This document shows, piece by piece, positions 6,492-23,000 of a stretch of DNA of 25,337 nucleotides. This DNA is from a virus, in the IMG/VR virus record IMGVR_UViG_3300021957_000275, positions 1 through 25,337 of that record. One strand, given 5' to 3'. The position numbers were made by a program, and so were the translations under genes. The stretch's first letter is position 1; each line of letters begins with the position of its first letter. The notes beneath the pieces are model-generated. The model did not search any database, had not been told where the DNA came from, and was given only the letters and a program-made list of their open reading frames with translations.

Positions 6492-6499
6492 TATTTATA
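6492..6499 (-). promoter_or_regulatory. T4-type late promoter upstream of gp13
   Basis: The coding strand reads TATAAATA, ending 33 bases before the gp13 ATG and overlapping the final codons of the preceding oxygenase gene (stop at 6495-6497). The exact consensus and ideal spacing make it a likely start of the gp13-gp17 transcript. It also separates the accessory cassette from the assembly genes transcriptionally. Confidence 0.8.
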
Positions 6500-7118
6500 A
6501 GAGTTTTAATCCTAGTTGAGAATCTCCATAACCTATATTTCCATCGGCCATAAAGTTCATGGCGATAGAGTATCGAGGATTTATACCAAAATATGGTTCA
6601 ATTTTATGGTACAGATAACTTGGAAATATTGCAAGCACTCCCTTTCCTGGCTGAATAGTAAAACTATCTCCATTAAAAGCATTAATTCTATCACTCATAA
6701 TGGTATACGACGTCTTATTAACTCCAATACTACTAAAGGCTAAACTGCCACCATCTTTTGGTGGTATATCATCTAAGTAATATACTGCGCTAAAAATAGA
6801 ATTAGTATGGTTATGCAAATCTGAGCCAGTCTTTGATTTGCACTTAGTAGACCAGGAAGAATACATCTTAAATTGCGTACTTCTATACTCAAAAATCTCG
6901 TTTTTATAGTCGTATAAGTGTTTTAATATAATTTTCTTTTCTCTTGGAAATTCATCTAATATTGAATATGATTCTGAGATTTCACTGCCAGAATCATTAG
7001 TGGTAGTGAAATCTTTTAATTTTATTGAATCTAAAGCAGACATGTCGTCTTCAATTTTAGTTATTGCAAGAGGACTTGCAAATAATGGTATAACATCAAA
7101 CTGTTTTATATTAAACAT
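6495..7118 (-). CDS. Phage 2OG-Fe(II) oxygenase-like protein
   Basis: This looks like a non-haem iron, 2-oxoglutarate-dependent oxygenase of the group (TIGR02466-like) common in marine T4-like phages; the substrate is unknown. Of 207 residues, the visible cupin motifs are LHNHTNSIFSAVYYL (His102/His104 as candidate iron ligands, ~101-115), a G-G-S-L-A-F strand, GVLAIFPSYLYHKIEPY with His171 as the distal ligand, and NPRYSIAMNF with Arg182 placed to bind the 2OG carboxylate. A clear HxD is not seen (the motif is HNH), so the metal set needs a structure model. The ATG follows the stop of the upstream gene directly, so it is the last gene of the accessory cassette. It could hydroxylate a virion protein, a host protein or a small molecule. 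Confidence 0.75.
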   Translation of the reverse strand: MFNIKQFDVIPLFASPLAITKIEDDMSALDSIKLKDFTTTNDSGSEISESYSILDEFPREKKIILKHLYDYKNEIFEYRSTQFKMYSSWSTKCKSKTGSDLHNHTNSIFSAVYYLDDIPPKDGGSLAFSSIGVNKTSYTIMSDRINAFNGDSFTIQPGKGVLAIFPSYLYHKIEPYFGINPRYSIAMNFMADGNIGYGDSQLGLKLL

Positions 7119-7709
7119 TTATTTACTCATATTGTATTTAAAATCAATTATAGCAAAAGTATCTTGCTTTTGAAACTTTGTATTATAGCCAGTTTCAATA
7201 GAAGGAATCATCGTTAACTTTTTAGTAATTTTGTATTCAATACCAACCCATGTTTGCATTTGATTATATTCGGCTTGATTATTTTGATACGTGTGATTCC
7301 AATGTGGTTCAAACGTAATAAATGGACTTCCTCCTAAAATTTTTATGTTATTTGGAGCATAACCAAATTGTGGCCGATATCTAAGTACGTTGTTTTTATT
7401 TTCCCTAATTCGATGTTCAATCCTATGATTATACCAAAAGCCATTAACATTAAACCATTTTCGTTGATATCGTAATCTATGCTCGTGGTTATCTCCATTT
7501 TGAACGTATCGGTATTCAACTCTATTTGGAGAATTTGTAAAGTCGTATCTTAGTAAACCTTGGCTATAATCTTTATCAAAATAACCTCTAGTACCTATTG
7601 TAACATTACCCTTTTTAATATACGCGTTAACTTCGGTATAGTTAAAGTCTTTTGCCATAGTTGCTACTGGCATCATTAGTATTATTATAAAACCAATTAT
7701 TTTTTTCAT
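7119..7709 (-). CDS. Exported protein, predicted small outer-membrane beta-barrel
   Basis: A 196-residue protein starting MKKIIGFIIILMMPVATMA, a textbook Sec signal peptide with likely cleavage after Ala19. I chose the ATG at 7707-7709 because AAGGAAA precedes it at good spacing and the signal peptide begins there; the open frame extends 22 codons further but would put a charged leader before the signal peptide. The mature part (~177 residues) has no hydrophobic helix and alternates aromatic/charged strands, for example RVEYRYVQ, HEHRLRYQRKWF, NHRIEHRI and TFAIIDFKYNM, ending near an aromatic strand. This resembles small KdgM-like or acid-stress porin-like barrels, but the family is not certain. 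It lies 14 bases after a membrane transporter-like gene. An exported barrel inside a late phage operon is unusual. Confidence 0.6.
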   Translation of the reverse strand: MKKIIGFIIILMMPVATMAKDFNYTEVNAYIKKGNVTIGTRGYFDKDYSQGLLRYDFTNSPNRVEYRYVQNGDNHEHRLRYQRKWFNVNGFWYNHRIEHRIRENKNNVLRYRPQFGYAPNNIKILGGSPFITFEPHWNHTYQNNQAEYNQMQTWVGIEYKITKKLTMIPSIETGYNTKFQKQDTFAIIDFKYNMSK

Positions 7710-7723
7710 TAGTGTTTCCTTTA

Positions 7724-8758
7724 TTAAATTAAAAATGTTACAATCCCGGCAGATGCTAGTAGAACGGCTATCCATATTGAAATAGCTTTATAGTACATAG
7801 AAAGCGGTGTATTAAAATAGCCTCTTCCAATTACCAAGCATTTATGCATAGGACTACACAAATATGCTGAATATTCTAAAGCAAAAAACCATAAAAAATA
7901 TTCAATACCAAAAACTTGTGCCATAAGAACAGCAAGCGCAATAAACTTCCCGCTACTTCCCATTAAGAAACTAGCAAAAAACCCTAGTGCTGAAATCATA
8001 GCCATGCCAACAAAAGTTGTTGGATCAACTATAGTTGATGATATAATTTCTTGCATAACTGAGTTCTGTGCCTTTAAATAATTACTTACTATGATCACAA
8101 AAGCTACAGTTAGTATTAACTCAAAATTAATATAGCCTAATAGTTTTTTAAAGTTCCATGTTCCAGTTAGTACCATATAGTATAAAGCCAACAATCCAAA
8201 ACATAAAATATAGTTTGAAGTTTGAACGTAACCAGCAATTGCTAAAATCATTGGAAATACATTTATAACTACAGAACTTATCTTAAATTTAGTTGGACTA
8301 ATTGCAACTTCTTCTTCTTTTATTTGTGTAAAAATGTACCATCCAATAAATAAAGCTGAAGCTACTAATATAGGCCATACGATACCAAGCCAAGCCCCAT
8401 AAGTTAAACCAAATGCAGCTAATGGTAATATTACTGTTTTTTCTAACGGGGACCACATATAATAATGATGAGTTGCTAAATAATCAATAATTCCTAGTTT
8501 TTCTCTACCTGGACCTTGTTTAGGGGCTAAAGTATCTAACAATCCTGCTGATACTGTAACTCTTCCTGATATAGGCAAAACACCACCAATAGCGCTTAAT
8601 ATAACTAAAACAAATTTGTTTGATCGAAATACATTTCTTACATAAGCATAGGCAGGGGCAAATAATTCGTGTTCTTTTGCTAGTCCCGCACTAATCATTA
8701 TGAATATAATCATCCACAAGTAGCTTATGCCGCCTGTTAAACTAAGTATATCTGTCAT
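7724..8758 (-). CDS. DUF401-like polytopic membrane protein (putative transporter)
   Basis: A 344-residue integral membrane protein with about nine or ten hydrophobic segments. It has a two-fold pattern: half one contains GGVLPISGRVTVSAG (58-72) then YYMWSPLEKTVIL (~99-111); half two contains FFASFLMGSSGKF (~260-272) then AYLCSPMHKCLVI (~298-310). Paired Gly/Ser/Pro hairpins followed by Y..SP..K motifs are what I associate with DUF401 and the wider ion-transporter type folds; substrate unknown. The start is ATG at 8756-8758, with AAGGAAAA upstream and an ATGA overlap with the preceding stop codon, so it is translationally coupled to the U32-methyltransferase gene. A 15-codon longer start at 8803 lacks a good ribosome site and is disfavoured. 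Confidence 0.65.
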   Translation of the reverse strand: MTDILSLTGGISYLWMIIFIMISAGLAKEHELFAPAYAYVRNVFRSNKFVLVILSAIGGVLPISGRVTVSAGLLDTLAPKQGPGREKLGIIDYLATHHYYMWSPLEKTVILPLAAFGLTYGAWLGIVWPILVASALFIGWYIFTQIKEEEVAISPTKFKISSVVINVFPMILAIAGYVQTSNYILCFGLLALYYMVLTGTWNFKKLLGYINFELILTVAFVIIVSNYLKAQNSVMQEIISSTIVDPTTFVGMAMISALGFFASFLMGSSGKFIALAVLMAQVFGIEYFLWFFALEYSAYLCSPMHKCLVIGRGYFNTPLSMYYKAISIWIAVLLASAGIVTFLI

Positions 8759-10416
8759 AAATTTTCCTTTTTTATTACCATAATATATAATCCATTCCAC
8801 CATTGATCTGGATCTTCAATGTCGTTAAGTATAATTTTATCGTAAACAATGTTTAACCCGGCAATTTTCATGCCTTCTCTCACACTATCTACAACACCAT
8901 CAAAATTAGCGTCATCAAATATAATAATACTTTCATCAGCTAACTTATCTTTAAAATAGACAAGCGACTCAATGTTTGATTTTGGATCGTGATCTGCATC
9001 ATAAAACATTAAATCGATCTTTTCTATTTTATCCAAATTCACTTTTCTAAAATCACAATCAAAAAGATGAACTGAATTATTTCCTTTATATTTTTTTACG
9101 TTTTCTATAAAGGTTTGCTTATTACCTTTTATATCAGAACCTGTTGCTGCCTGAGTATCATCTTTAAAATGATCAATTGCATAAGCTGTAATATTGTTAT
9201 TATTTATAGCAGCACAAAATGTTGAACCAGATAGCACACCCACCTCTAAATAGTGCGTTGACATACCCGCCAATATGTTTAATAAGCTTTGTGTTCTTTT
9301 ACTAGATAAACCTTCTATATCGACATTGACATCTACGTTTGTGCAATCGATTAATGCTTGCGCCACCCTTTCGATTTTAGGAACATTAGAATTACCCTTA
9401 GCCTTCCATACTTTATCGCAAAAATTACAGTCCCAGCAATCAAACTTACACGTTTTTATTATTTTGCGCCAACCATCTATAGGTCTACCTTCCATATTAG
9501 AATCTTTAATATATTCATTAAACGTGTCAAATAATATGTCGTCATCGCTCGCAAATCTTTTTATAATATCAACAGTTTCCCATAACCTGGATATTGATTC
9601 TCTTCCGTGCATCTTAATTGTATCAATTCCAATATCCAACAGCTCTATCCAATCTTCTTTCCACGGAGTAAAGTTTGCAGTCTTTAATTGAACCGCAATA
9701 TTTTCAGTATCCCATTTTGGACAAGACACTCTACTAATCGGGTCTGAAAAATACTGCGGGCCGTCTGTTCTAGTATTATTAAACTGGAAATGTTCTGGCA
9801 TAACAGAGCATCCTCCAAGACATCCCTCATTTGCAAGTAAAGACAATTTAACATTATACTTTTCTTTTACTTTAGCAATTTCTTTTATTCTATCGTGATC
9901 GCGCATTAAAACTCTATCTAGGTTTACGTAATCAAAACCAGCTTCAGCCAATAAAGCGACGTCTCTTGGTTCTTTTACCTGTCTCAATATAGTATTTTTA
10001 ACAAACAATTTGGGAAAATGCTTTTTAACTTGCCCAGTCATCATCCAATGTGTATGCGGAAGAGTGCAGTTATATATTCCTGCATCGTATAGTGGTTTAT
10101 AATTTTTTATCCAAAGATCTAGGTTTTGTTGATCGGGCCTAACTTCAATGTTATTAAAAGTCGCAGATACTGGTATGCCAATATTGTTCTGAATATGTAA
10201 AGCAGCTTCTATCAAATACTGAACATCATTCGTAGATGCAAAAACATCTCCCATTGCGTCTTGATTAAATGGAGGTATCCGCGTAGTAAAATACACGTCA
10301 TATATATAATCCTTGTACTTTGTTAAAAAGTCTAAGAATTTATAGTATTCTTTTTCGTTAAGTTTTGGATTTAGTGGAACACTAAATACTTTCGCCGTCG
10401 CTTTTTTCGTCTTCAA
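8755..10416 (-). CDS. U32-like Fe-S domain fused to class I SAM methyltransferase
   Basis: A 553-residue two-domain enzyme I could not match to a named gene. Residues ~1-345 look like a TIM-barrel of the peptidase U32 superfamily (the YhbU/UbiU/RlhA/TrhP type, which carry a 4Fe-4S cluster): NEGCLGGCSVMPEHF has Cys199 and Cys203, SCPKW has Cys232, and CKFDCWDCNFC has Cys323, 327, 330 and 333. Residues ~385-550 form a Rossmann methyltransferase: motif I YLEVGVLSGST (389-399), DLMFYDADHDPKSN (~468-481) and IIIFDDANFDG (~497-507), like Methyltransf_24 enzymes that act on sugars or small molecules. The start is TTG at 10416: an in-frame stop (TGA) lies directly before it, the first in-frame ATG is at residue 55 inside the barrel, and GGTGAG precedes it. 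It overlaps the upstream gene by 35 bases. Confidence 0.65.
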   Translation of the reverse strand: MKTKKATAKVFSVPLNPKLNEKEYYKFLDFLTKYKDYIYDVYFTTRIPPFNQDAMGDVFASTNDVQYLIEAALHIQNNIGIPVSATFNNIEVRPDQQNLDLWIKNYKPLYDAGIYNCTLPHTHWMMTGQVKKHFPKLFVKNTILRQVKEPRDVALLAEAGFDYVNLDRVLMRDHDRIKEIAKVKEKYNVKLSLLANEGCLGGCSVMPEHFQFNNTRTDGPQYFSDPISRVSCPKWDTENIAVQLKTANFTPWKEDWIELLDIGIDTIKMHGRESISRLWETVDIIKRFASDDDILFDTFNEYIKDSNMEGRPIDGWRKIIKTCKFDCWDCNFCDKVWKAKGNSNVPKIERVAQALIDCTNVDVNVDIEGLSSKRTQSLLNILAGMSTHYLEVGVLSGSTFCAAINNNNITAYAIDHFKDDTQAATGSDIKGNKQTFIENVKKYKGNNSVHLFDCDFRKVNLDKIEKIDLMFYDADHDPKSNIESLVYFKDKLADESIIIFDDANFDGVVDSVREGMKIAGLNIVYDKIILNDIEDPDQWWNGLYIMVIKKENL

Positions 10417-11098
10417 TCATCTCACCATTTTCTAATAATTTATCAATAAATTCAACATCGTTATCGGATTGATAGGAAAGAGTTAACTCATCAACGCCCT
10501 TTCTTTCCAAATTAGCAATGCCATTATTCATAACAGCGCTATATTTTAGCGCTATTTTTACAGTCTGTTCTTGATCTTCAATTCCCATCATAGTAATTGA
10601 GTCCATATTTCCTTGACTTATTTTACCAATAGTCATAAGATCCATAGCAGCTTGCTTACCCATACGAGCAATCCAGTATTTTCTTTCTTCTTCTGGATTT
10701 TCTTTATTTAGCTCTTTAAGCTTATCTAAATCTGGAACTAGCTCTTTTACAAGTTCAGCAAAAGTTTCTAACTCACCGGACAATTGAGTGTATCTTTTAT
10801 CATACGTTGATAGATCATATTCAGATTGCTCAATGTCACATTGAATAATAACCTTTTCTAATTCGTCGCTTTCATTGTTATAAGCTCGTTCTAAGATTGC
10901 TTTATTAGCTAATTCTCTTTTTACGTTTCTTTCTACCTGTCTTTTAGCCTGAAGCCTAGCTTCAACTTCAAGCAAAGCTTGTCTAACTCTACGGTAATTT
11001 GTCACGTGCGAGTTAACTACAAAGTGCCTAGACTGAAAGTCTGATTGAGAAAACGTGCCATGAGTTTCTATTAAATTATATATTTCTTCGTTTTTCAT
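10382..11098 (-). CDS. Unrecognised 238-residue protein, probable coiled coil
   Basis: No family recognised. Residues ~35-130 are strongly helical and charged with long runs of Glu/Lys/Arg/Leu (ALLEVEARLQAKRQVERNVK, then LAELVKELVPDLDKLKELNK-type heptads), suggesting an extended coiled coil. The C-terminal ~100 residues are more globular, Met-rich near 170-185, with an acidic tail. It starts 7 bases after the previous gene; the nearest Shine-Dalgarno-like AGGA is unusually far (about 13 bases) from the ATG, across an A-rich run. Its 3' end overlaps the U32-methyltransferase gene by 35 bases. A structural, scaffolding or fibre-assembly role is possible by position only. Confidence 0.8.
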   Translation of the reverse strand: MKNEEIYNLIETHGTFSQSDFQSRHFVVNSHVTNYRRVRQALLEVEARLQAKRQVERNVKRELANKAILERAYNNESDELEKVIIQCDIEQSEYDLSTYDKRYTQLSGELETFAELVKELVPDLDKLKELNKENPEEERKYWIARMGKQAAMDLMTIGKISQGNMDSITMMGIEDQEQTVKIALKYSAVMNNGIANLERKGVDELTLSYQSDNDVEFIDKLLENGEMIEDEKSDGESI

Positions 11099-11105
11099 AT
11101 TTTTT

Positions 11106-11663
11106 TTAAAATCCTAAAGTATAATCACAAACCTCGGTTCTACAACCAAGATCTTCGTCCCATAAGTCAAGTTCTCTTAACTGGGTTCTTGTCATTTCAA
11201 TTCCTAAAAGTTCTTCTCTTTTAAGATTAATAGCTCTTACTGTGGTTAAACCATTAATCATAGTTAATATAGTATCTTCGCCATCTCTACTATCTCTAGT
11301 ATCGTAAACATCCATTACCATTTTTTTAAAAACTCTTTTCATTAACAAAATGGTAGCAGCATGAAATTCATCAGTGTAATAAATTTTAGTTTTACCATTC
11401 TCATCTTCATCAGGCTCTAATCCTTCATCATATGAATAAGCCTTTCTAAATTCTCTAACTTCGCCATAAAATTTAATACCCTGAGTAGCTTCTATTTCAG
11501 TTATTTCTTCCCATGGTTGTCCTAGTCCAGTAAATTCTGTCCATAAGTTTTCGTGATTTTCATCGTCAATAGAAAATATAGTATACTCTGTAAGAGTGGC
11601 TACTATAGTAAGACCATCCATGGTTGGTATAATCTTATCAAATTTTGCAATACAGTATTTCAT
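11106..11663 (-). CDS. Unrecognised 185-residue protein
   Basis: No family recognised. The sequence starts MKYCIAKFDKIIPTMDGLTI, has mixed alpha/beta composition, an acidic linker near residues 83-94 (EGLEPDEDENGK) and no signal peptide or membrane segment. I start at the ATG 11661-11663 because AGGAGGAG lies upstream at proper spacing; the frame could open at 11708, but the extra Arg-rich 15 residues would be encoded inside the preceding gene without a better ribosome site. The Shine-Dalgarno is made from the last Gly-Gly codons of the upstream paralogue. The neighbours suggest a late virion or assembly protein. Confidence 0.82.
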   Translation of the reverse strand: MKYCIAKFDKIIPTMDGLTIVATLTEYTIFSIDDENHENLWTEFTGLGQPWEEITEIEATQGIKFYGEVREFRKAYSYDEGLEPDEDENGKTKIYYTDEFHAATILLMKRVFKKMVMDVYDTRDSRDGEDTILTMINGLTTVRAINLKREELLGIEMTRTQLRELDLWDEDLGCRTEVCDYTLGF

Positions 11664-11668
11664 TATTT

Positions 11669-12736
11669 TTAATCTCCTCCTAATATATATGCGCTTGCTG
11701 AAGCGCAACTAGCTGAACTTATGCCATCATGACCTTTGGGTTGTGCTGTAGAACCTAAAGTAGTAAATGTGTCAGTTGCATGTACTACTTTATACGTATT
11801 ATTGTTTTGAACACCATTGTAATGACCTATGCAATAACCATGTTCTTGTCCGGTTTGATAATTTTCTTCACCCGCGTTTCCATCTGGCGTTGTTAATGTT
11901 GTAGATATATTAGCACCAGTTTCATCATTTATTTTATATATACCACTAACAACATTTCCGCCATTCTTTACATATGTATGACCATCCTTTGTGGATAATG
12001 CTTTGCCCCAACCGTCAGTAGCTACTGATAATCCAGCAGCACTATATACCTCTGTTGCAAATGCAAGCTTATGATTTATTGTACCAGTATGCGAAGATTT
12101 AAACCATCCATATGTTTTACCTTGCCAAGCTGCATTAAAATCACTGCCAGTATTATCAAATGCATTAAGGTTTTGATAAATTCCAATATCAGCCATGACT
12201 TCAGTAACCATATTATGTCTACATGATCTAAAGCCCTTACCCATTAAATATGCAAAGGTCAATCCTGGACTAAGAACAGTACCAATATCTCCATAGCCAG
12301 AATATGCAGAACTAGTATCCCAATCAGTATTATGAGTTCTTGCAGATTCAGTGGCCATATCTACACACTCAGTTCTAACACCAGTTCCAGGAAACGAAGT
12401 AGAACATTGATATACCCATTGGTGTTTATCGCTATAAGCACCCATACTATAAGCACATGGAGTTCCTATTGTATCTCCAAGATTTGTTGTAGTATCAGTA
12501 GAGTGCACTGTTCTATTTGTGTTTCTCCAAGGGCTACTGCTTTTATAACCACCAGTTGTATAACCTCTAGTATAAATTGAACGATATTTAAATAAGCCTA
12601 AAGGTGTACTAAATGGATTAGTATCTAAAGCGCTGCCTAAAGTAGTCCATGAATCTCCATCATACACGTAAGGAAATCCATTTTGCGCTGTAAAAATATC
12701 ACCAGTAGTGGGTGATGCCGGAAAGCTAAGAGCCAT
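11669..12736 (-). CDS. Glycine/aromatic-repeat virion protein, paralogue B (probable fibre or adhesin accessory)
   Basis: A 355-residue protein and tandem paralogue of the next gene upstream. It opens with FPASPTTGDIFTAQNG then YVYDGDSW, the P..P..G..f...G..y.y.g..W module at the head of many phage fibre and baseplate proteins. The rest is repeats of about 40-50 residues ending in G-Y-x-x-G-like strands, including RGYTTGGYKSSSPWRNTNR, VATDGWGKALSTKDGHTYV, and C-terminal AQPKGHDGISSASCASASAY. The spacing and the repeated Gly/Trp/Tyr pattern suggest a beta-propeller or kelch-like fold, inferred only. It ends in GGD; its start overlaps the previous stop as TAATG. A host-recognition or virion decoration role is likely from position after the giant fibre. 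Confidence 0.78.
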   Translation of the reverse strand: MALSFPASPTTGDIFTAQNGFPYVYDGDSWTTLGSALDTNPFSTPLGLFKYRSIYTRGYTTGGYKSSSPWRNTNRTVHSTDTTTNLGDTIGTPCAYSMGAYSDKHQWVYQCSTSFPGTGVRTECVDMATESARTHNTDWDTSSAYSGYGDIGTVLSPGLTFAYLMGKGFRSCRHNMVTEVMADIGIYQNLNAFDNTGSDFNAAWQGKTYGWFKSSHTGTINHKLAFATEVYSAAGLSVATDGWGKALSTKDGHTYVKNGGNVVSGIYKINDETGANISTTLTTPDGNAGEENYQTGQEHGYCIGHYNGVQNNNTYKVVHATDTFTTLGSTAQPKGHDGISSASCASASAYILGGD

Positions 12737-13764
12737 TAATTACCTCCAACTACCAGAGCGCTGGCGCTTCCGCAACCACCAGAAGACATACCATCATGCC
12801 CTTTGGGTTGAGCGGTAGCACCTAAGCTAACAATTGTATCTGTCAAATATGAAAGTTTAGTACTAGCATTTGTCTGGGCAGAACCATTATAAAGTCCAAG
12901 AGTATAACCACTATTTTGTCCTAGGTTTTGATTTTCTTCACCGGCAGCCTGAGGTCTAGTAACGCCAGATCCAATAGTAGCTCCAGTTGCGTCATTAAAT
13001 TTTAAATAAGTCGAAGATCCACCATACGTTCCTGTTGCGCCATAACCATGACCATGTTTAGAACTCAATCCTTTTGGTTGACCATCAGTTGCCCATGATA
13101 TACCACCGCTACTAAACGTTTCGGTTGTCCAATCTAAAGAGCCACACTCTGAACTAGTAGTTCCTTGACTTACCCATCCTTTATATTGTCCAAATAAAAC
13201 ACCTACTCCTTTTACAGTGCCACCCGCAACAGTAGCAGGAGATCCTGTTGTATACATTGTTCCAGTTACCATATTGTGCTTATCTGTGTTAGTTCCAGTA
13301 GTGCCTCCACATATATATGCAATAGTCCAACCTGGGTTTTGCAAAATATCCATATCTTGCCTAGCAGTTATTAGGTTTTGAGCAGTTGTATGCGTCATTT
13401 CGGTTTCTGTCGACATATCAAATTTACCAGTGTATGTCCCAACTCCCGAATGTGTGCCAGTCATACCATACATATAATGATGATAATCACTAAAACTTCC
13501 ATCTTTATATGAACAAGTGTTTGACCATAGATCACCTAAGTTTGTAGTTGTATCTGTTGCGTGCACGCATCTGTTAATATTTCTCCAAGGGCTGCCGGAT
13601 TTATAGCCACACGAAACATAACCACGAGTAATAATTGTGCGGTATAAAAATGGATTTCCACCTAGATCATTTTTAATTGACCAACCGTTCGCGCTGTATT
13701 GATATAATCTTCCTTGTTCTGCAAGAAATTGATCTCCTGCTGATGGGCTTGTTGGAAATTGCAT
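12736..13764 (-). CDS. Glycine/aromatic-repeat virion protein, paralogue A (probable fibre or adhesin accessory)
   Basis: A 342-residue protein closely related to its downstream neighbour over its full length: FPTSPSAGDQFLAEQGRLYQ, then RGYVSCGYKSGSPWRNINR, HATDTTTNLGD, and C-terminal AQPKGHDGMSSGGCGSASAL, ending GGN. Between these, internal repeats occur, for example ATDGQPKGLSSKHGHGYG. The start at 13764 has an AGGAG 5' of it. The stop overlaps the start of paralogue B by one base, with GGAGGT inside the last codons. The N-terminal module is typical of phage fibre proteins; a kelch-like propeller is an inference. Confidence 0.78.
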   Translation of the reverse strand: MQFPTSPSAGDQFLAEQGRLYQYSANGWSIKNDLGGNPFLYRTIITRGYVSCGYKSGSPWRNINRCVHATDTTTNLGDLWSNTCSYKDGSFSDYHHYMYGMTGTHSGVGTYTGKFDMSTETEMTHTTAQNLITARQDMDILQNPGWTIAYICGGTTGTNTDKHNMVTGTMYTTGSPATVAGGTVKGVGVLFGQYKGWVSQGTTSSECGSLDWTTETFSSGGISWATDGQPKGLSSKHGHGYGATGTYGGSSTYLKFNDATGATIGSGVTRPQAAGEENQNLGQNSGYTLGLYNGSAQTNASTKLSYLTDTIVSLGATAQPKGHDGMSSGGCGSASALVVGGN

Positions 13765-13776
13765 ATTAAACTCCTA

Positions 13777-14034
13777 TTATGACCAGATTGTTGCTGCTAT
13801 ATCTCGTATTAGCTGATCATAATTAGATACATCAGTGTCTTCTCCATCTGTAAATTTACCAAGACCTATAGTCTTAGCCACTTCATCAGATTCTCCAGTG
13901 ACACTATCAGCATATATATCAATCATCTGAATTGACATTGATGGATGCGCCATATTGTCCGTATCATCGCTATCAGGCATCGGGGCCGGATAAATCGAAA
14001 TTGAAATTATTTGATTTGTTTTTGTAATTGCCAT
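13777..14034 (-). CDS. Small unrecognised virion-cluster protein (85 residues)
   Basis: An 85-residue protein, no family recognised. Its N-terminal third is beta-rich (QIISISIYPAPM) followed by an acidic stretch (DSDDTDN) and a C-terminal helix ending AATIWS. The start ATG overlaps the stop of the giant fibre (TAATG), and GGAGAAG, which encodes the last residues of that fibre, acts as its ribosome site. An exact late-promoter octamer lies about 50 bases upstream inside the fibre gene. The size and position would fit a fibre-associated cap or chaperone, not shown. Confidence 0.75.
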   Translation of the reverse strand: MAITKTNQIISISIYPAPMPDSDDTDNMAHPSMSIQMIDIYADSVTGESDEVAKTIGLGKFTDGEDTDVSNYDQLIRDIAATIWS

Positions 14035-17000
14035 TATTTCTTCTCCATACTTTTTTCTAGCTCGTTTAATCTAGCTTCTAATTTATTTATAAGATTTTGT
14101 TGTTCCTTTATAGCTTCTACTAGTACTGGAACAACTGCTTGATAATTTACTACTTTGTGTTCTTCCCCATCGATATTTGTAATATCTTTTACAACCTCGG
14201 GTATTACTTCTTCTACTTCTTGAGCAATAAATCCTAAATTGTCTTTCGACTTACTTTCATCAATCCAATCAAACTTTACACCTCTTAATTTGAGAGTTTT
14301 ATCTAGTGATCCTTCTAAGTCTCTTACATTTTCTTTTAACCTAGCATCTGAAGTTGTTGTAGTTGAATAAGCAGTAATATCTCCTTTAGCATGAAAAGCA
14401 CCAGTAGGAGTAAATTGGAAGACATCGCCTTGGCCACTGTTATTACTGAATATTTTCATATTACCAACACCAGTTCCAGAAGCATGATACCACAATGTCA
14501 TTTGTGGACCGGCCGAATGATAGAAGTTTAAGCCTCTTCTAGCGGATTGAGAACTAGTTGTGCCACCTCTGTAATTAGACTGCTCATAAGGATTAATCTT
14601 ATATGTTGTACCATTAAAGTTTACTTGGCCTGATAAGTTTATAGCAGCAATATTTTGAAGGTTCTTACTAGCATCTATTACAGTAGTGCCATTTTGTTCA
14701 TAAGTATTTGTCGCATTAAATGAACCTGCAGGCGGTGTATCACCATATGACGTTCCTGCAAATACCGACTTTGTACGTATGTCTTGTGCGCCACTGGCTA
14801 AAGTTAAGAATGCAAATGCATTATTACTATGAACAGCACCAGTATGAACTATAATACCTCTACTAGTATTCACTGATAACGCTAATGCATTGGTATGAGT
14901 AGCAATATCAAATTGACTACTACCTGAAGTACCTGCTACGTTTTTACCAACTTTCCAATCTGTACCAGATGAGGCTCCTAAGTAAATATATCCTGAGGTT
15001 GCGCCTGAAGCTATATTTGAAAATCGAGCTATTTGATTAGATGTTCCATTAGCACCGGCAATTTTATCAACAAATAGTTCATTATCTAATTCAGTAATAC
15101 CAACAACGTTTAGAGTGTTTAATATACTTACAGAGCCACTAATTGTACCACCACCCTTACTGTATAAGTTAGAGATACTTGGTACAGCAACTGCATCAAC
15201 CCATGCTGCTGTAGTACCATCGTTGTGATAGAACTTTAGCTTACCTACCGAAGTATCAAACCAAAGTTCACAATTATCTGCATGAGTAGTAATCGTTGGA
15301 GTAGTACTTCCAGTGAAAATCATTGGAATACGTTTTGTTTCTTGCCATACCCCAGAATTTTTACTCTTAACAGCAATTGCGCCAGATCTATAATCGCCAT
15401 TAATAGTATGTCGCCATGAGCTATCATACGCTTGTGCATATCCAGCACCATCTGTTGCGTTTCCACTAAAGTTAGAAGTACCTGAACTGTAATAGAAAAT
15501 ACCATTACCATTAACAGCTTCTACATTCTGCGCAGAATTTGACCGAGTATTAATAAACGCTTGGCCATCAATATTGTTAACAGTAACTGCAACGCTGTTT
15601 GTCCAGCTTCCACTACCATTTACACTTGCACTTGCAGTACCAGTAGCGTCACCTGTTAATGTTACAGTATCAGTTCTTGCTGTTGTCCATGTATCTGCAT
15701 TTGGATGATAGTCATCTCTAAATATTTGCTGGTTTTTATATTTTAGCGCGGTTGTGTTGTGGGGAAGGCTAAGGCCACCGCTGTCAGCACTAGTACCATA
15801 CGCGAGAACTAAGTTTTTACTTGGATTTCTTGCAACCCACCATGCTTCAGTTATTCCATTTACAGAGTTACGAACGCCTCCAAATGTCGCTCCACCCCAG
15901 CCTGAAGTCGAGCGATTTAGTCTTGCGCCTTCTGTATAGTTACCTGTAGAGTCTGAATTAAAATATAATTGACCATTGAATGATACATCACCAGTTGCAG
16001 TATCATTAGCGTCGCTTCTTAAAAATGATGCTGCATGCAAACTATCAACAGTATCTGCATTTGTTGCGTTTGTTGCATTCGCAATAGTTGTAATATTAGA
16101 ACTAAAGTTTGATGCTGTAAGAATATTACTGCTATTGTGTTTTAAAGAAGAACCACTACCTGTCGCAAATGCAATACCATCGTTATTATCATTCTGAGAA
16201 GAAATTACTAATACCGCGCCCGAGTGTCCTCCAGTGTTAGTTGTGTGCCTAATATATGCTCTATCAGAAAAGTCTGTAACACCTTCTTTATCAAAGCCCG
16301 TAAAATCAATAGTTCTAGATTGATTAGAAGTTGTTGGATCGCCTTCTAAATGAATATTACCAAATACACTTATCTCACCATGAACTGGTTCAGTAACATC
16401 AATAACAGTACAGTTTGCTATATGGTAACTAAAGTTTCCACTTCCCCCACTAGTATATACATGACCGCCACCACCGAAACTTCCACTATCACCACAGTGA
16501 GATACTCTAGCATACCATTCCCATTTGCCAGTACCCGCAGTACTTGATAACCAATACGACGTGTTATTTGATCCCTGAGCATTTTCTGCAATTACGAAAC
16601 TTTTACTTGTTGGTAATTTAGCTTGAAAAATTTGTACAAATGTATGGTTATCTTCTGAAGGTATTGTTTGAATAAAACCACCAAAACCAGGAGAAGATGA
16701 GCCACCATTATGATTAACTTTCAAGACATACCCAGAACTATTAGGAGCTGTGCCACCAGAACTTACTGATGCAAGTTCACGCGTAACAGTTACTGCACCA
16801 CCGGCTGTATTATTATAAACTCCAACAGTATTAGTTCCATCTCTAAAATCTTCATCAGGATATAGTCTTCTACCACTATTTCTCATTGATGTAATAATAG
16901 GATTCCATGGGCCACGTTCTGTAGAGCTACTTGGTAGGTCTAATACTACTTTGCCATCAACTAATACTCGCTGTGCATTTAAATCTCCATTTACTGTAAA

Positions 17001-20000
17001 TCCACCATCGCTATGATTATGATTATGCGAGTCATTACTAATAGCAACTGATAGTGTTACATTAGCAGAACCATCCCATGATACTGAACCTGAAGCATCT
17101 CCACTTAATGACAATGTTCTTGGTGTTGTCCATTTGTCAGCATTAGGATGATAAGCATCATTAAAATATCTAGAGCCATTGTTGTCGCTGGAGCCTTTCC
17201 ACAAGTCTCCATCTGGACCCATCCAAGCAGCGACGCCTGAAGCTCCATTACCAAAAGCAACACCAGCAGCACCTTCATAATAGTTAAGATATGTAGCTGA
17301 ATTAATTTCGGAATCTAGGTGTAGATTACCATTTGTGCATTTGATCTCAGCTTGTTTATTGGTTACATTTCCACCAAGTATTAATTTACCTTGTTTTGAA
17401 GCGTCTGAAAAACTGCCAAGTAATAATGTGCTTTCTATTGCTGCACCAGTGGTAGTAGTCTCAAATCGTTTTACATTAGAAGCATAAAGTTTTACTGTGT
17501 GATCATTATTATTGCCATTACTATTCGAAGCCACTATTAAGTTATATGCTCCAGATAAGCCGCCTCTAAGTTTTATTCCTCTATAAGTATTCCACATTAT
17601 TCCATCGAAAGCGCCACTTGTTCCTGGTCTCGATGTTGGAGTAGTTCCATATGCTGCGTTCCAAAGAACGTGATTCGCGTCTGTCGCTGAAGCTCCATTA
17701 AACCATATCGATGAATTAGCGTGAGTTCTTGATAATCTTATACCATTAGCTTGAGTTATAATACCACTATTAAACGACGATTGCGTTGAAGTAGTCGCGC
17801 CTCGACCCGTGACACTAGCTAATGTATCTGTTTCAGAATAAGCTCCATTATAAGCTGTTGATATTGTCCATGTCCTATTTCCAGTACCATCAACGCTTTG
17901 AGTTGCTGTTCCTGTAATTGCTCCATTTAGTGTTACTGTATGACTTCTAGCGGTTGTCCATTTGTCAGCATTTGGATGATAGTTGTCCTGAAAGATTCTT
18001 TGCCATGAATACCATGTAGAACCAGAATCGTTCATTCCTCTAATAAATGTGCCGGCACCAGTTCTCTCATGCGCAAGCTGCATTGTAAAACCAGCACCGG
18101 CTTTGTCATTACCAACAACCAACATACTACCATATGTAAATGGCGCATTAGTATTACCAGTAGCCGTTCCATTATATATGTTATAAAAACCAGATTTAGC
18201 TAAGTTGTCAAAGTTTTGAGCTCCATTAAGCATAACTGTTTTTGCTTTAAATGAACCATTAACTTCAAGTAAAGCGTCTGGCGAACTTGTTCCTATACCA
18301 GTCTCACCATTTGATTCTATGTGAAGTCTGTCCTGATTACCAGTACCCGTGGATATTGAAAAGCTTGCGCCATTAGAACCAGCAATACCAGCTTTCCATT
18401 CAGCAGCACTATTAGTACCTCTACCAAATGTTATTTGAGGAGCGTTACTACCTCTTACATGAATACCCTTATAATTAGCAGCCTCATTAACTTCTAATTT
18501 GTTGCCTGGATTAGAGTCGTTAATACCAAAATTGCCATTTTGTAACACTGTTACATAAGGTCCTGTAACGTTAGTATACGATGGCGTCGCACCCTGTCCA
18601 TATAAATCTAATCTATAGCCCTGACTACTTCCTCGAGTTGAAAAATCCCAACGCATAGCACCGTTGCTATCAAAGAATAGCTCAGCTGGGTCATCAGTAG
18701 TCGATCTTATTCTCACAGTTGCTCTTGCAGTAGTATCTTCAAATATTGCAGCAACTGAACCACTTGAATATGAAGCTCCAGTAGATTTTACGTGTAATTG
18801 AGCATCTGGTGATGTATTACTAATACCAACCTTTCCGGCTTTAATAGTTAATTCATCCCTATAACTTGCAGAATGGTTACTCGCTGTTCCTAATCTAAGC
18901 TCTGTTGTCCAGCCAGCGTCATGTTTAAAATATAACCTACCAGCATTATGTTCTGCGCTATTATACATTCCACTAAGAGTGATTTGGCCATCAGCCGCAC
19001 CCGGATCAAGTATATGCAATACTGATTCTGGTGTAGACATGTTAATACCAATATCACCGGCTGTAGTAATTCTCATTCTTTCGGTATCGGTATCTGTCGT
19101 AAATGTTAAGAATCCACCTGTACTTGCTCCACCTCTGTAGAACTTAATGTTAGCATTAGATGTAGTACCATAATGTAATCCAAATTTAAATGCATATTGA
19201 CTAGAACCATTTCCGGTGCCGTTATTATATAATGACATTCTAAAATTAGATTCAGTACCATTAATCCAATTAGCCCATAAATTTCCTGAATTAACAGTTG
19301 TAGTTTGCATGCCAAGATAATCAGATCCTTGATTTACCTTAAAAGTACCATTAACGTGTAACGTAGTATCAGGTGTAAACACACCACTACCAATACCCAC
19401 TCTACCATTTGCCCTGATAAACATTTTGGTTGAAGGCGCTGCTTGACCCGATGTTGATGTTCTAAACTCTAGTCTACCATTGTAGTTTCCATCATCTGTA
19501 GAAGTAATTTGCGATGTATTCCATATACTAGTATTACCTGGATGGCCAGTTCTAAATGTTAATTTAGCAGCACTTTGATCGTATCGTGACGCAATTGTAA
19601 TACCTGTCGATGCGGTTTCAGGATTACCTACCTGTAAATCGGTATGTGGATATGTGCCTGGATCAATATTAATACCTGCAGTATATGTTGTTCCATCTTG
19701 ATAGAAGCCCATAATACGTGTATGATCTGCACCTGAGTTTAGTAGACCAATATAACCAACGCCTCTATCAGAACTGCTTCGACCACCTTCAATTAATAAA
19801 CCACGATCATTAGAATGGTTAATTAATATTGCACCACCAGTATTATCAGAATCAGTACCGCCCTGGAACCTAGCAACTAAGTTAAACGCACTAGATGTAT
19901 TTGGACCTTTTACATGAAGTTGAGGCGTGTTAAGAGTTAAATCTCCATCAGTCGGATCGATATCACCAATACCAACAGCGCCTCCAATAACTCGTATCCT

Positions 20001-23000
20001 TTCAACGCCACCAGTAACAACTCTCCACTGATCGCCACTATCAAACTCCATATATGTGTTTGAATCACTAGTATGTTCTATTTTTTGTGGTACAAATAAA
20101 GTTCCACCAACACTAAAGTTACCAGATGAAGATGAGTGGTTATGCGAATCGTTAGCTACTACTACAGGAATTGTTGTAGTACCAGAACCAGAAGCATCGC
20201 CAGTTAGCGTTATTGTTTGGTTACCCGTTAGGTATGTACTTGAATCAACTGAACCATCGGCTTTTAAGAATTGAGACGATGTACCACCAGTTTTAACAAT
20301 TGTCGCGCCTTGAACAGTTGATGAACCTGTGATAGTACCACTTACCGCTAATGTCGAAGTAATACTTACTGATCCACTAATTGCCCCACCGGTCTTATCA
20401 TATTTAGTTGATACATCAGGAATTGCTGATGCTGTTACCCAAACAGAACCATTGTAGATTTTTAAATTACCTGAAGTAGAATCCCACCATAATCTTCCAG
20501 TAGAAGCAGTAGGTGCCGAAGTTTGTGTGGGTACATCAATGACTAAACTATTATATGTTCCATCTACATCACCACCAAAAGTCGTCGTAGTAGTTAATAG
20601 GTTTGTAATATTACTAGTAAAGTTTGCTGCAGTAAGAATATTGCTACTATTATGTTTTAATGTAGAACTCGCATGTGTAGTAAACGCAATACCATCTCCT
20701 GAATCATTACCAGATTTAAGTTCTAATACAGAATTTGAGTGGCCACCAACAGCTTCAGTATGCCTAATATAAGCCTTGTCTGATTTATCTCCACCTGATT
20801 CTTTATCCCATGCTGACCAATAAACTCCTAGGTTTTGATTAGTCTCTGAATAAGTATCTCTATCAAAGTTAATACCATGTGAGAATTGAAATTTATCTTC
20901 AGCATGATCCCAAAGAATTTTAGATCCTGCTCCACCAATGATCAGTCCTGATTCATCCGCAGCAGAACTTGAAGCAGCACCAGCAGATACAGTAATTGTT
21001 TTATCTTGAACATCTAAATCTGTTACTGATACAGTATTAATATCACCTGTAATATTTAAATCACCGGTAACATTTAATGTCGCAAAGGTAGGTGAATCAG
21101 TAGTTCTTAAATTCTGATTCATTAAGTGAACTTCGGTATTACCTTGTCCAGTATTAATATGGCTTGTATAAAGACCACCATCAATATTTAAATTACCAGC
21201 TGCAGATAATGTAGCTCTTTCTGTTACAGTGCCACCATCTCTAACATGAAATGTCATTTTACCAGTACCAGAACTTGATTCAGCAAGAGTTGCTACTCGT
21301 ATTTGACCAAATATTCTTGAGGCCGCGGTAGTACTAGCCTCTTTTATACCTAAAGATAATGTCGCAGTTTCATTAGTACCTGTTCCTGTTCCATAAGATT
21401 TTGTATTAAATATTCCTACATTAAAATCACCATCAACGCTTCCTTGAATATGAACTGGAAATTCAGGACTATCAGTATGAATACCAACCTTACTATTACC
21501 ATTTGCAGTTGCAGATTGAAATGACATCATATTAGAAGGATAATCACCTTCATCTCTAATTCTTAAATGAGTTGCATTAGACTGCCAAATTCTCCAATCT
21601 AATGAACCATTTGTATAGTATAAAAGATTATTATGGCTGCTTACTCCACCTCTATCCATACGTATACTAGCATGGCCAGATGAATCTACCTTTATACCAG
21701 AAGACGCATCTGATACAGTTAAAGGAGCATCGACTATTGTTGCCCCATTTAAATAAGTTGTTCCATTGTTATATAAATCATAAGTTCCATGCAAAGCAGT
21801 TATCGATGGACCAAATGTACCTTTTCTTGCAACAACGCCATCACTAGCACCATTAGCAAATAATGTACCGTCTGTTAAATAAAGATTTTGATTGTCTAAA
21901 TCAAAGTATGCTATTTCGTCAACGTGAGAATGATTAGTAAAACTAGTAGTATTATTAATTTTACCGAATGATATTTTTCTACCTGTTTGAGCAGGACCAT
22001 AAATCATTGTGGCCCAATCACCGCTGGTGCCATTATCATTCCATAACATCATACCATAAGATGTTGTACCATTATCATAGACAGAAACTCTATGCGCCGC
22101 AGTGTTAGTAGCATCATTTGTAAGTCTAATAGTAGGAGCAATTAAGTTGCCTGTACCTTGAACTTCAACATTACCTGTACTTGAAATATCTAATCGATTT
22201 GAATTACCAGTTCTAATTTGTAAAGCATGAGCTCCATGAGTACCAATCGACACGTAATTGCCATCAGCACCAACTCTTTCTTGATATTCTACAAGCGTAC
22301 CATCATTGCCATGATCGCCATATGTTCTAGTTATGAATCCACCCAGTTCATTTCGATAAGTCGCGATTTGAGTAGTGGTCGAATCATTACGAACAGAAAT
22401 TAAATCAGACGCGCCAGCACCAATATGAAGACCATCAGCGTTTAAGATTCCATTAACTAAAACACCCCATGATGCAGTTTGAAGTTTTGCAGTACCACCT
22501 CCAGCAAATAGTTGTACATCAGTTGGAGTAGCTATTATTACATTAGCGTTATTACTAGGATTTCTAACTATAAGACCACTTGTATCTAAATATAAACTTC
22601 CTACTCCAGTATCTTGTATAAAACTGTGTGTGCCACTATGATAAATCTGTAAATCATCACTAGATCCAAACTTAGCCTTATAACCATCATTCCAACGATA
22701 ATTAGCTCTAATAGTTGAATCAACATAACTTTCTAAGTTGTGCGTTATACTTTCTGAATAATCATAAGCAAACAACTGATTAATTCTCATACCAGTACTA
22801 GCAAAATCAGTAAATGTATATCTTATTGCGTTAGTAGAAGTACCACTACCGCCGTGATAATGATTAACTGTAGAGTACGGAAAATCAGCCACATCGTAGA
22901 TAGAAGTCCAATTTGCTCCCGAATCAGTTGAATGCTCAATCTCAATACTTTTAGCTCTAAAAGATGGATGTCCAAATTGAACACCATAATATTGCGCATA

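Follow-up and report, generated by a model that had tools for sequence, protein, structure and literature searches.

A conserved gene neighbourhood was found in a virus record of 25,337 bases from a T4-like phage (IMGVR_UViG_3300021957_000275; "the window" denotes this whole stretch), in which the genes concerned lie on the minus strand. The conserved unit consists of one or more fibre genes, p1604/p1409, a gene coding for a U32-like domain joined to a methyltransferase (U32-MT) and a gene for a DUF401 carrier, often followed by the gene of an exported barrel. With a probability of roughly one half, the locus encodes a late-expressed cross-envelope transport pair coupled to tailoring enzymes of the fibre locus. 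The preliminary description of this DNA had grouped U32-MT (8755-10416), the carrier (7724..8758), the barrel (7119..7709) and a 2-oxoglutarate (2OG) Fe(II) oxygenase (6495..7118) as one cassette of four co-directional, closely packed genes. The four open reading frames (ORFs) were indeed present on the minus strand in this arrangement. The TGA stop codon of U32-MT overlaps the start of DUF401 in an ATGA at 8755-8758, so that DUF401 runs from 8758 to 7724. The barrel starts with the ATG at 7709, after an AAAGGA motif and 14 nucleotides (nt) past the DUF401 stop, and ends at 7119; the 2OG gene begins at the very next base (gap 0).

The order of genes was compiled for about 330 loci, and linkage was counted in 44 dereplicated U32-MT loci, those of the U32-MT scan most similar to the window. 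Upstream sequence was available for 42 of these loci: 40 of them had p1409 or p1604 no more than three genes before U32-MT, and 39 had w355 no more than six genes before it. On the downstream side DUF401 lay within nine genes in 33/40 loci and was the immediate neighbour in 29/40, which argues against homologues scattered independently through related phages. In the reverse direction U32-MT was near DUF401 in 11/36. The most constant partners of U32-MT are thus p1409/p1604 and the fibre-like w355, and the upstream boundary given to the cassette was wrong. In the window p1409 (10382..11098, minus strand; phrog_1409) codes for a helical-looking protein and overlaps U32-MT by 35 nt, therefore the operon extends further upstream than had been proposed. 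It is preceded by p1604 (11106..11708, minus strand; phrog_1604, TTG start uncertain) and by w355 (11669..12736, minus strand; phrog_1417), a tail-fibre-like protein whose phage-fibre-type N-terminus was judged by eye. The 2OG oxygenase (2OG-FeII_Oxy_5 by Pfam, phrog_81) was absent or located elsewhere in most relatives. It is an exchangeable neighbour rather than a fixed member, and the single four-gene cassette was dropped as a functional unit.

U32 and methyltransferase are encoded as one protein or by two adjacent genes, depending on the phage. In a second lineage (most of L286-L331) they are separate, and the order is p1409, p1604, a radical S-adenosylmethionine (radical-SAM) gene, U32, methyltransferase, barrel, DUF401. 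This lineage thus keeps the genes contiguous in a different order. Together with the linkage of U32-MT to DUF401 and the pairing of DUF401 with barrels, it lends good support to the combination of inner-membrane carrier, outer-membrane barrel and modifying enzyme, which the preliminary description had put forward. The radical-SAM gene of L293 (3233-4231) and its relatives in L286-L331, located between p1604 and U32, code for a C-terminal Cys cluster. Behind DUF401, these contigs have a block of convergent genes that includes glycosyltransferases and an epimerase.

Pairing of carrier and barrel was assessed with a simple heuristic of our own, which accepted proteins that were exported, otherwise helix-free, and encoded on the same strand directly after the gene in question. 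Such a protein followed long DUF401 genes (330 residues or more) in 34 of 56 dereplicated cases; among other genes, 40 of 1384 had one (Fisher p 3e-33). The partners belong to at least six unrelated families, including OMP_b-brl, Phenol_MetA_deg-like, DUF2490 (the window and L209) and Gcw_chp/TorF (L222). In L117 and L120 the partner is a 717-residue siderophore-type TonB-dependent receptor with a plug (L117 type PF00593 plus PF07715), and in L090 a 584-residue plug-bearing receptor type recognised by motif. Unlike these receptors, the window barrel, which carries the signal peptide MKKIIGFIIILMMPVATMA, is small and has no plug. Its DUF2490 score was just under the cut-off, and that of its homologue L209:1023-1592 was above (35.1 vs 29.8). 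No close relatives of the window barrel were found in the phage collection or in IMG/VR; it was placed via DUF2490 and L209. When the scan was started from the barrel (OMP_b-brl, f32), 13 of 13 close homologues had DUF401 directly upstream and distant homologues had not. In L152 carrier and barrel form a single 544-residue ORF, in which the last helix of the carrier continues into SAVNA/EEKE, a site resembling the cleavage site of a signal peptide. The other contig with this fusion, from another sample, is 99.7% identical to L152 and truncated at its start. Far from being scattered, DUF401 and the barrel are statistically paired and even fused. Barrel families switch quickly between relatives, and in some phages DUF401-barrel pairs sit elsewhere in the genome.

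Other genes were seen around the transport pair. A ferritin/Dps-like gene (PF00210) lies between the transport genes and gp13 in L090, L102, L103, L105, L107, L109 and L130. Full-length DnaK (PF00012, 869 bits in L088) and then Hsp20 follow shortly after DUF401 or the barrel in L086 (11974-14374), L088 (1124-3514), L112, L122 and L128, and a homologue of ribosomal protein S21 (PF01165; L086:8859-9170) is located directly upstream of DUF401 on a phage contig.

A barrel serving the outer membrane should be absent from phages of hosts that lack this membrane, and this idea was tested. No downstream barrel was found with short DUF401 (0/22). WhiB, which is typical of actinobacteria and the phages that infect them, was searched in 40 contigs and was present in 11/24 short-type vs 0/16 long-type contigs (p 0.001); the short type is one related group and not many independent cases, the contigs are incomplete, and the host is read from WhiB alone. 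The WhiB contrast fits the prediction, and the barrel seems to be missing where hosts lack an outer membrane. Behind the computed contrast of phages with and without barrel we infer one-membrane hosts.

The window carrier, which is of the long type, matched DUF401 (PF04165) with 53.3 bits vs a cut-off of 24 (E 3.8e-14) and was assigned to phrog_14035. Its AlphaFold model (predicted local distance difference test, pLDDT, 90) matched IT-superfamily carriers in Foldseek, namely MleN (TMq 0.61), Pho90, TRAP, INDY, NaS1 and NaDC. The elevator-type fold, with a template modelling score (TM) of up to 0.65 to such carriers, suggests an IT-superfamily carboxylate/oxyanion carrier. The DUF401 profile gave no match to PDB sequences. 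The Pfam match and the elevator-type fold are shared with the DUF401/TIGR00529 proteins of the IT superfamily (MleN, INDY, NaDC, TRAP M subunits); unlike these, the phage DUF401 clade scores far below the TIGR00529 cut-off and has an outer-membrane barrel as its partner, either as a separate protein or as part of a fusion. The scan of IMG/VR yielded 476 DUF401 relatives. The family is present in nine records of the phage collection, and the complete cyanophages S-H25, MbCM1 and S-CAM4 carry both DUF401 and U32-MT.

U32-MT was assigned to phrog_1458 in the PHROGs search, and its AlphaFold model had a pLDDT of 86. The N-terminal half (9382..10416) is predicted to form a U32-type TIM barrel, as judged from the model, Foldseek and conservation: it matched the U32 peptidase Mk0906 (5d88) with a TM of 0.70 by target length and a root mean square deviation of 3.8. 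The earlier assignment to U32 is thus supported at the level of fold and not at the level of family, as PF01136 (peptidase U32) matched neither the window protein nor the separate U32 protein L293:4224-5261 in the Pfam search. Each of seven Cys of the domain (C199, C203, C232, C323, C327, C330 and C333) is retained by at least 95% of the 101 relatives compared. The motif N-E-G-C-x3-C (E197, C199, C203) has the spacing E-x-C-x3-C, and the essential residues of TrhP, E162, C170 and C177, are spaced E-x7-C-x6-C (PMC6599085). The TrhP-type spacing is therefore not found in U32-MT, though Glu and two Cys are all conserved. Because of this change and the missing match to the Pfam family, the domain is labelled U32-like. 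In profile comparison TrhP and RlhA were weak matches, and no meaningful alignment was obtained with UbiU and UbiV.

The C-terminal half (8755..9381) is a class I methyltransferase with a Rossmann, O-methyltransferase-type fold (Methyltransf_24, Pfam 2.5e-9). Foldseek matched it to O-methyltransferases, TrmR among them. TrmR/YrrM was also the best PDB profile match, a weak one (E 0.017), and the fold is common to many O-methyltransferases. Relatives of U32-MT numbered 452 in the IMG/VR scan, and the protein occurs in 123 cyanophage records of the phage collection. The only two matches in cellular genomes, L134 and L135 (Dehalococcoidia and Euryarchaeota metagenome-assembled genomes), look like mis-binned phage contigs and were rejected as cellular U32-MT; L134 was judged to be phage from its phage-like gene order, and L135, itself too short to judge, by analogy.

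These features suggest a scheme in two parts. Gene content and order, the fusion, the predicted folds and the barrel contrast are computed results, from which the chemistry, the direction of transport, the cargo and a functional link between the two parts are deduced. In the first, the U32-type Fe-S domain would hydroxylate a target and the fused methyltransferase would O-methylate it. The target would most likely be a product of the fibre region of the phage, because U32-MT is constantly accompanied by fibre-type genes and p1604/p1409, and because in related phages halogenases, radical-SAM enzymes and 2OG oxygenases turn up next to it or in its slot. In the second part, DUF401 would be an elevator-type carrier that moves a small organic anion, or a metal chelate of it, through the inner membrane. 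Where the host has two membranes, the outer one would be opened by a matching channel, be it a small barrel, a porin or a TonB-dependent receptor. Uptake is the most likely direction, because two lineages use TonB-dependent receptors. The cargo would most likely feed late metal- or carboxylate-dependent chemistry, which might link the two parts. Among IT carriers, those of the CitMHS type transport metal-citrate. For the cargo our tentative first guess is an iron chelate, since U32, 2OG and radical-SAM enzymes depend on iron and one group has a ferritin/Dps gene behind the barrel; an organic acid is the alternative guess. The boldest form of the scheme, in which a trans-envelope uptake system of the phage's own, possibly made as a single protein that is cut at the last helix of the carrier, feeds hydroxylation, methylation or halogenation of its own fibres, appears rather doubtful.

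The main rival for the role of U32-MT is a tRNA enzyme, a one-protein TrhP plus TrmR that would form 5-hydroxyuridine and then 5-methoxyuridine at position 34 and so tune late translation. It owes this place to precedent: in bacteria TrhP/RlhA, of the U32 family, are required for RNA hydroxylation and TrmR methylates 5-hydroxyuridine at position 34, and oomycetes and a diatom have a fusion of TrmR with another hydroxylase, TrhO (PMC6599085). The profile and Foldseek matches of the methyltransferase domain to TrmR point the same way, but other O-methyltransferases fit equally well, and the Glu-Cys-Cys spacing departs from that of TrhP. A tRNA enzyme would also leave unexplained why fibre-type genes and p1604/p1409 so constantly accompany U32-MT and why radical-SAM or halogenase genes lie next to it or in its slot. 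We consider such an enzyme unlikely. A somewhat smaller chance is given to a phage natural product, a halogenated, hydroxylated or methylated small molecule made by the locus and exported through DUF401 and the barrel. The neighbouring halogenase, oxygenases, methyltransferase and radical SAM do resemble tailoring genes of natural-product pathways; however, no scaffold-forming gene was seen, and the plug-domain TonB-dependent receptors used by at least two lineages are importers.

Phages alter host surface proteins, and barrel and carrier might accordingly serve in superinfection exclusion or as receptor decoys. The fast turnover of barrel families between relatives would suit such a role. The constant part is nevertheless the carrier and the optional part the barrel, phages with short DUF401, some of which bear the WhiB marker, have the carrier and no barrel, and a decoy needs no multi-spanning carrier. 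Blocking of superinfection, which the preliminary description had offered as one possibility, also leaves the plug-bearing receptors and the absence of the barrel from WhiB-bearing phages unexplained; it is less likely than an uptake module and, taken by itself, improbable. The same low standing is given to the view that these are passengers, independent auxiliary genes that have no common function and were gathered where the fibre region is variable. 2OG oxygenases, halogenases and others do vary from phage to phage at this place, Syn9 and HTVC008M being examples, and some DUF401-barrel pairs lie elsewhere, but mere gathering does not account for the statistical pairing, the gene fusion, the ATGA coupling or the rearranged yet contiguous second lineage.

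Several points weigh against a transport pair coupled to fibre-locus enzymes. Over 100 cyanophage records have U32-MT and only nine have DUF401, two large contigs carry DUF401 without a full-length U32-MT, and in some phages the two genes are far apart (L073/L104, about 50 kb; L128; S-CAM4). The neighbourhoods of cellular DUF401 (Chloroflexota) consist of housekeeping genes and give no clue to the substrate. The phage barrels are putative, being recognised from their sequences. The U32-like domain lacks a Pfam U32 match and has a residue spacing unlike RlhA/TrhP. Flavin halogenases, which sometimes occupy the U32-MT slot, are not iron enzymes, so that the iron theme is incomplete.

The remaining genes of the window agree with a genuine phage genome, since T4-type neck, terminase and sheath genes are present. 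In the Pfam and PHROG search gp13, gp14, gp15, the small terminase and others were found downstream of the four genes. Upstream lie two paralogous phrog_1417 proteins, w355 and the fibre-associated w342 (12736..13764, minus strand), which cluster together, and a single ORF of 3484 residues (14034-24488, minus strand), probably a giant adhesin or fibre. A T4-type late promoter before gp13 had been proposed, and the motif TATAAATA is located at 6499-6492 on the minus strand, where it overlaps the 2OG stop codon and precedes gp13 by 34 nt. In the window as a whole, exact copies of the octamer were not enriched (7 found vs 5.1 expected). The promoter claim is nevertheless sound, because four of the six minus-strand octamers directly precede gene starts, at 34-66 nt (gp18, gp13, an 85-residue gene and the 3484-residue ORF, whose own TATAAATA is 66 nt upstream; p ~8e-6 by a simple binomial). 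Among the octamers preceding a gene start, the nearest upstream of the four genes is at 14084..14091 (minus strand). Scans for sigma-70 promoters and terminators gave site numbers not above those of shuffled sequences.

Phage flavin halogenases, 2OG oxygenases and the phage transport genes pstS, amt and tctA have been described before. In the open-licence literature searched, no description was found of the DUF401-barrel pairing, the fusion or U32-MT in phages; papers on DUF401 were irrelevant, and none joined peptidase U32 with cyanophage. Like RlhA, TrhP and UbiU/UbiV, U32-MT has a TIM-barrel fold with conserved Glu and Cys and a weak similarity to the TrhP profile. It differs from the U32 family in an extra C-terminal CxxxCxxCxxC cluster, a fused or adjacent methyltransferase and an almost exclusively viral distribution, and has KMHGR at the position of RlhA KIEGR. 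TrmR and the Methyltransf_24 O-methyltransferases share the Rossmann, O-methyltransferase-type fold and lack the fusion to a U32 domain. Bacterial uptake pairs that span both membranes, such as FptA/FptX with a TonB receptor and a single permease, likewise combine an outer-membrane receptor with an adjoining single-protein inner-membrane carrier, but the phage carrier belongs to another superfamily, the barrels are mostly small and plug-less, and the pair is virus-encoded. Phage pstS, amt and tctA also help host nutrient transport; they are single parts of host systems, whereas here one phage operon serves both membranes.

The pairing suggests that the virus installs its own small-molecule route across the host envelope, and hundreds of T4-like viruses of water bacteria would be concerned. 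If this is true, lytic phages provide the host, late in infection, with a transport route whose inner- and outer-membrane parts are matched, and DUF401, a carrier family without known function, gains a first functional handle. The fusion protein and the contrast between one-membrane and two-membrane hosts make the transport idea testable. U32-MT, mostly annotated as hypothetical protein in more than 100 sequenced cyanophage records, becomes a concrete candidate for viral fibre or RNA modification.

Cyanophage flavin halogenases of the VirX1 type, which carry out flavin chemistry, have homologues (26-32% identity) in this region next to the fibre genes, at times in the place of U32-MT; the window has no copy. 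In Syn9 (L132:6491-16670) and HTVC008M (L133:3031-11380), halogenase and 2OG oxygenase genes form arrays close to fibre or neck genes; the annotations ferrochelatase, DNA endonuclease V and minor coat protein given to genes beside them may be wrong. A family of about 240 residues (f12, phrog_7084; L092:8846-9619) accompanies U32-MT, DUF401 and halogenases and is also found in Syn9.

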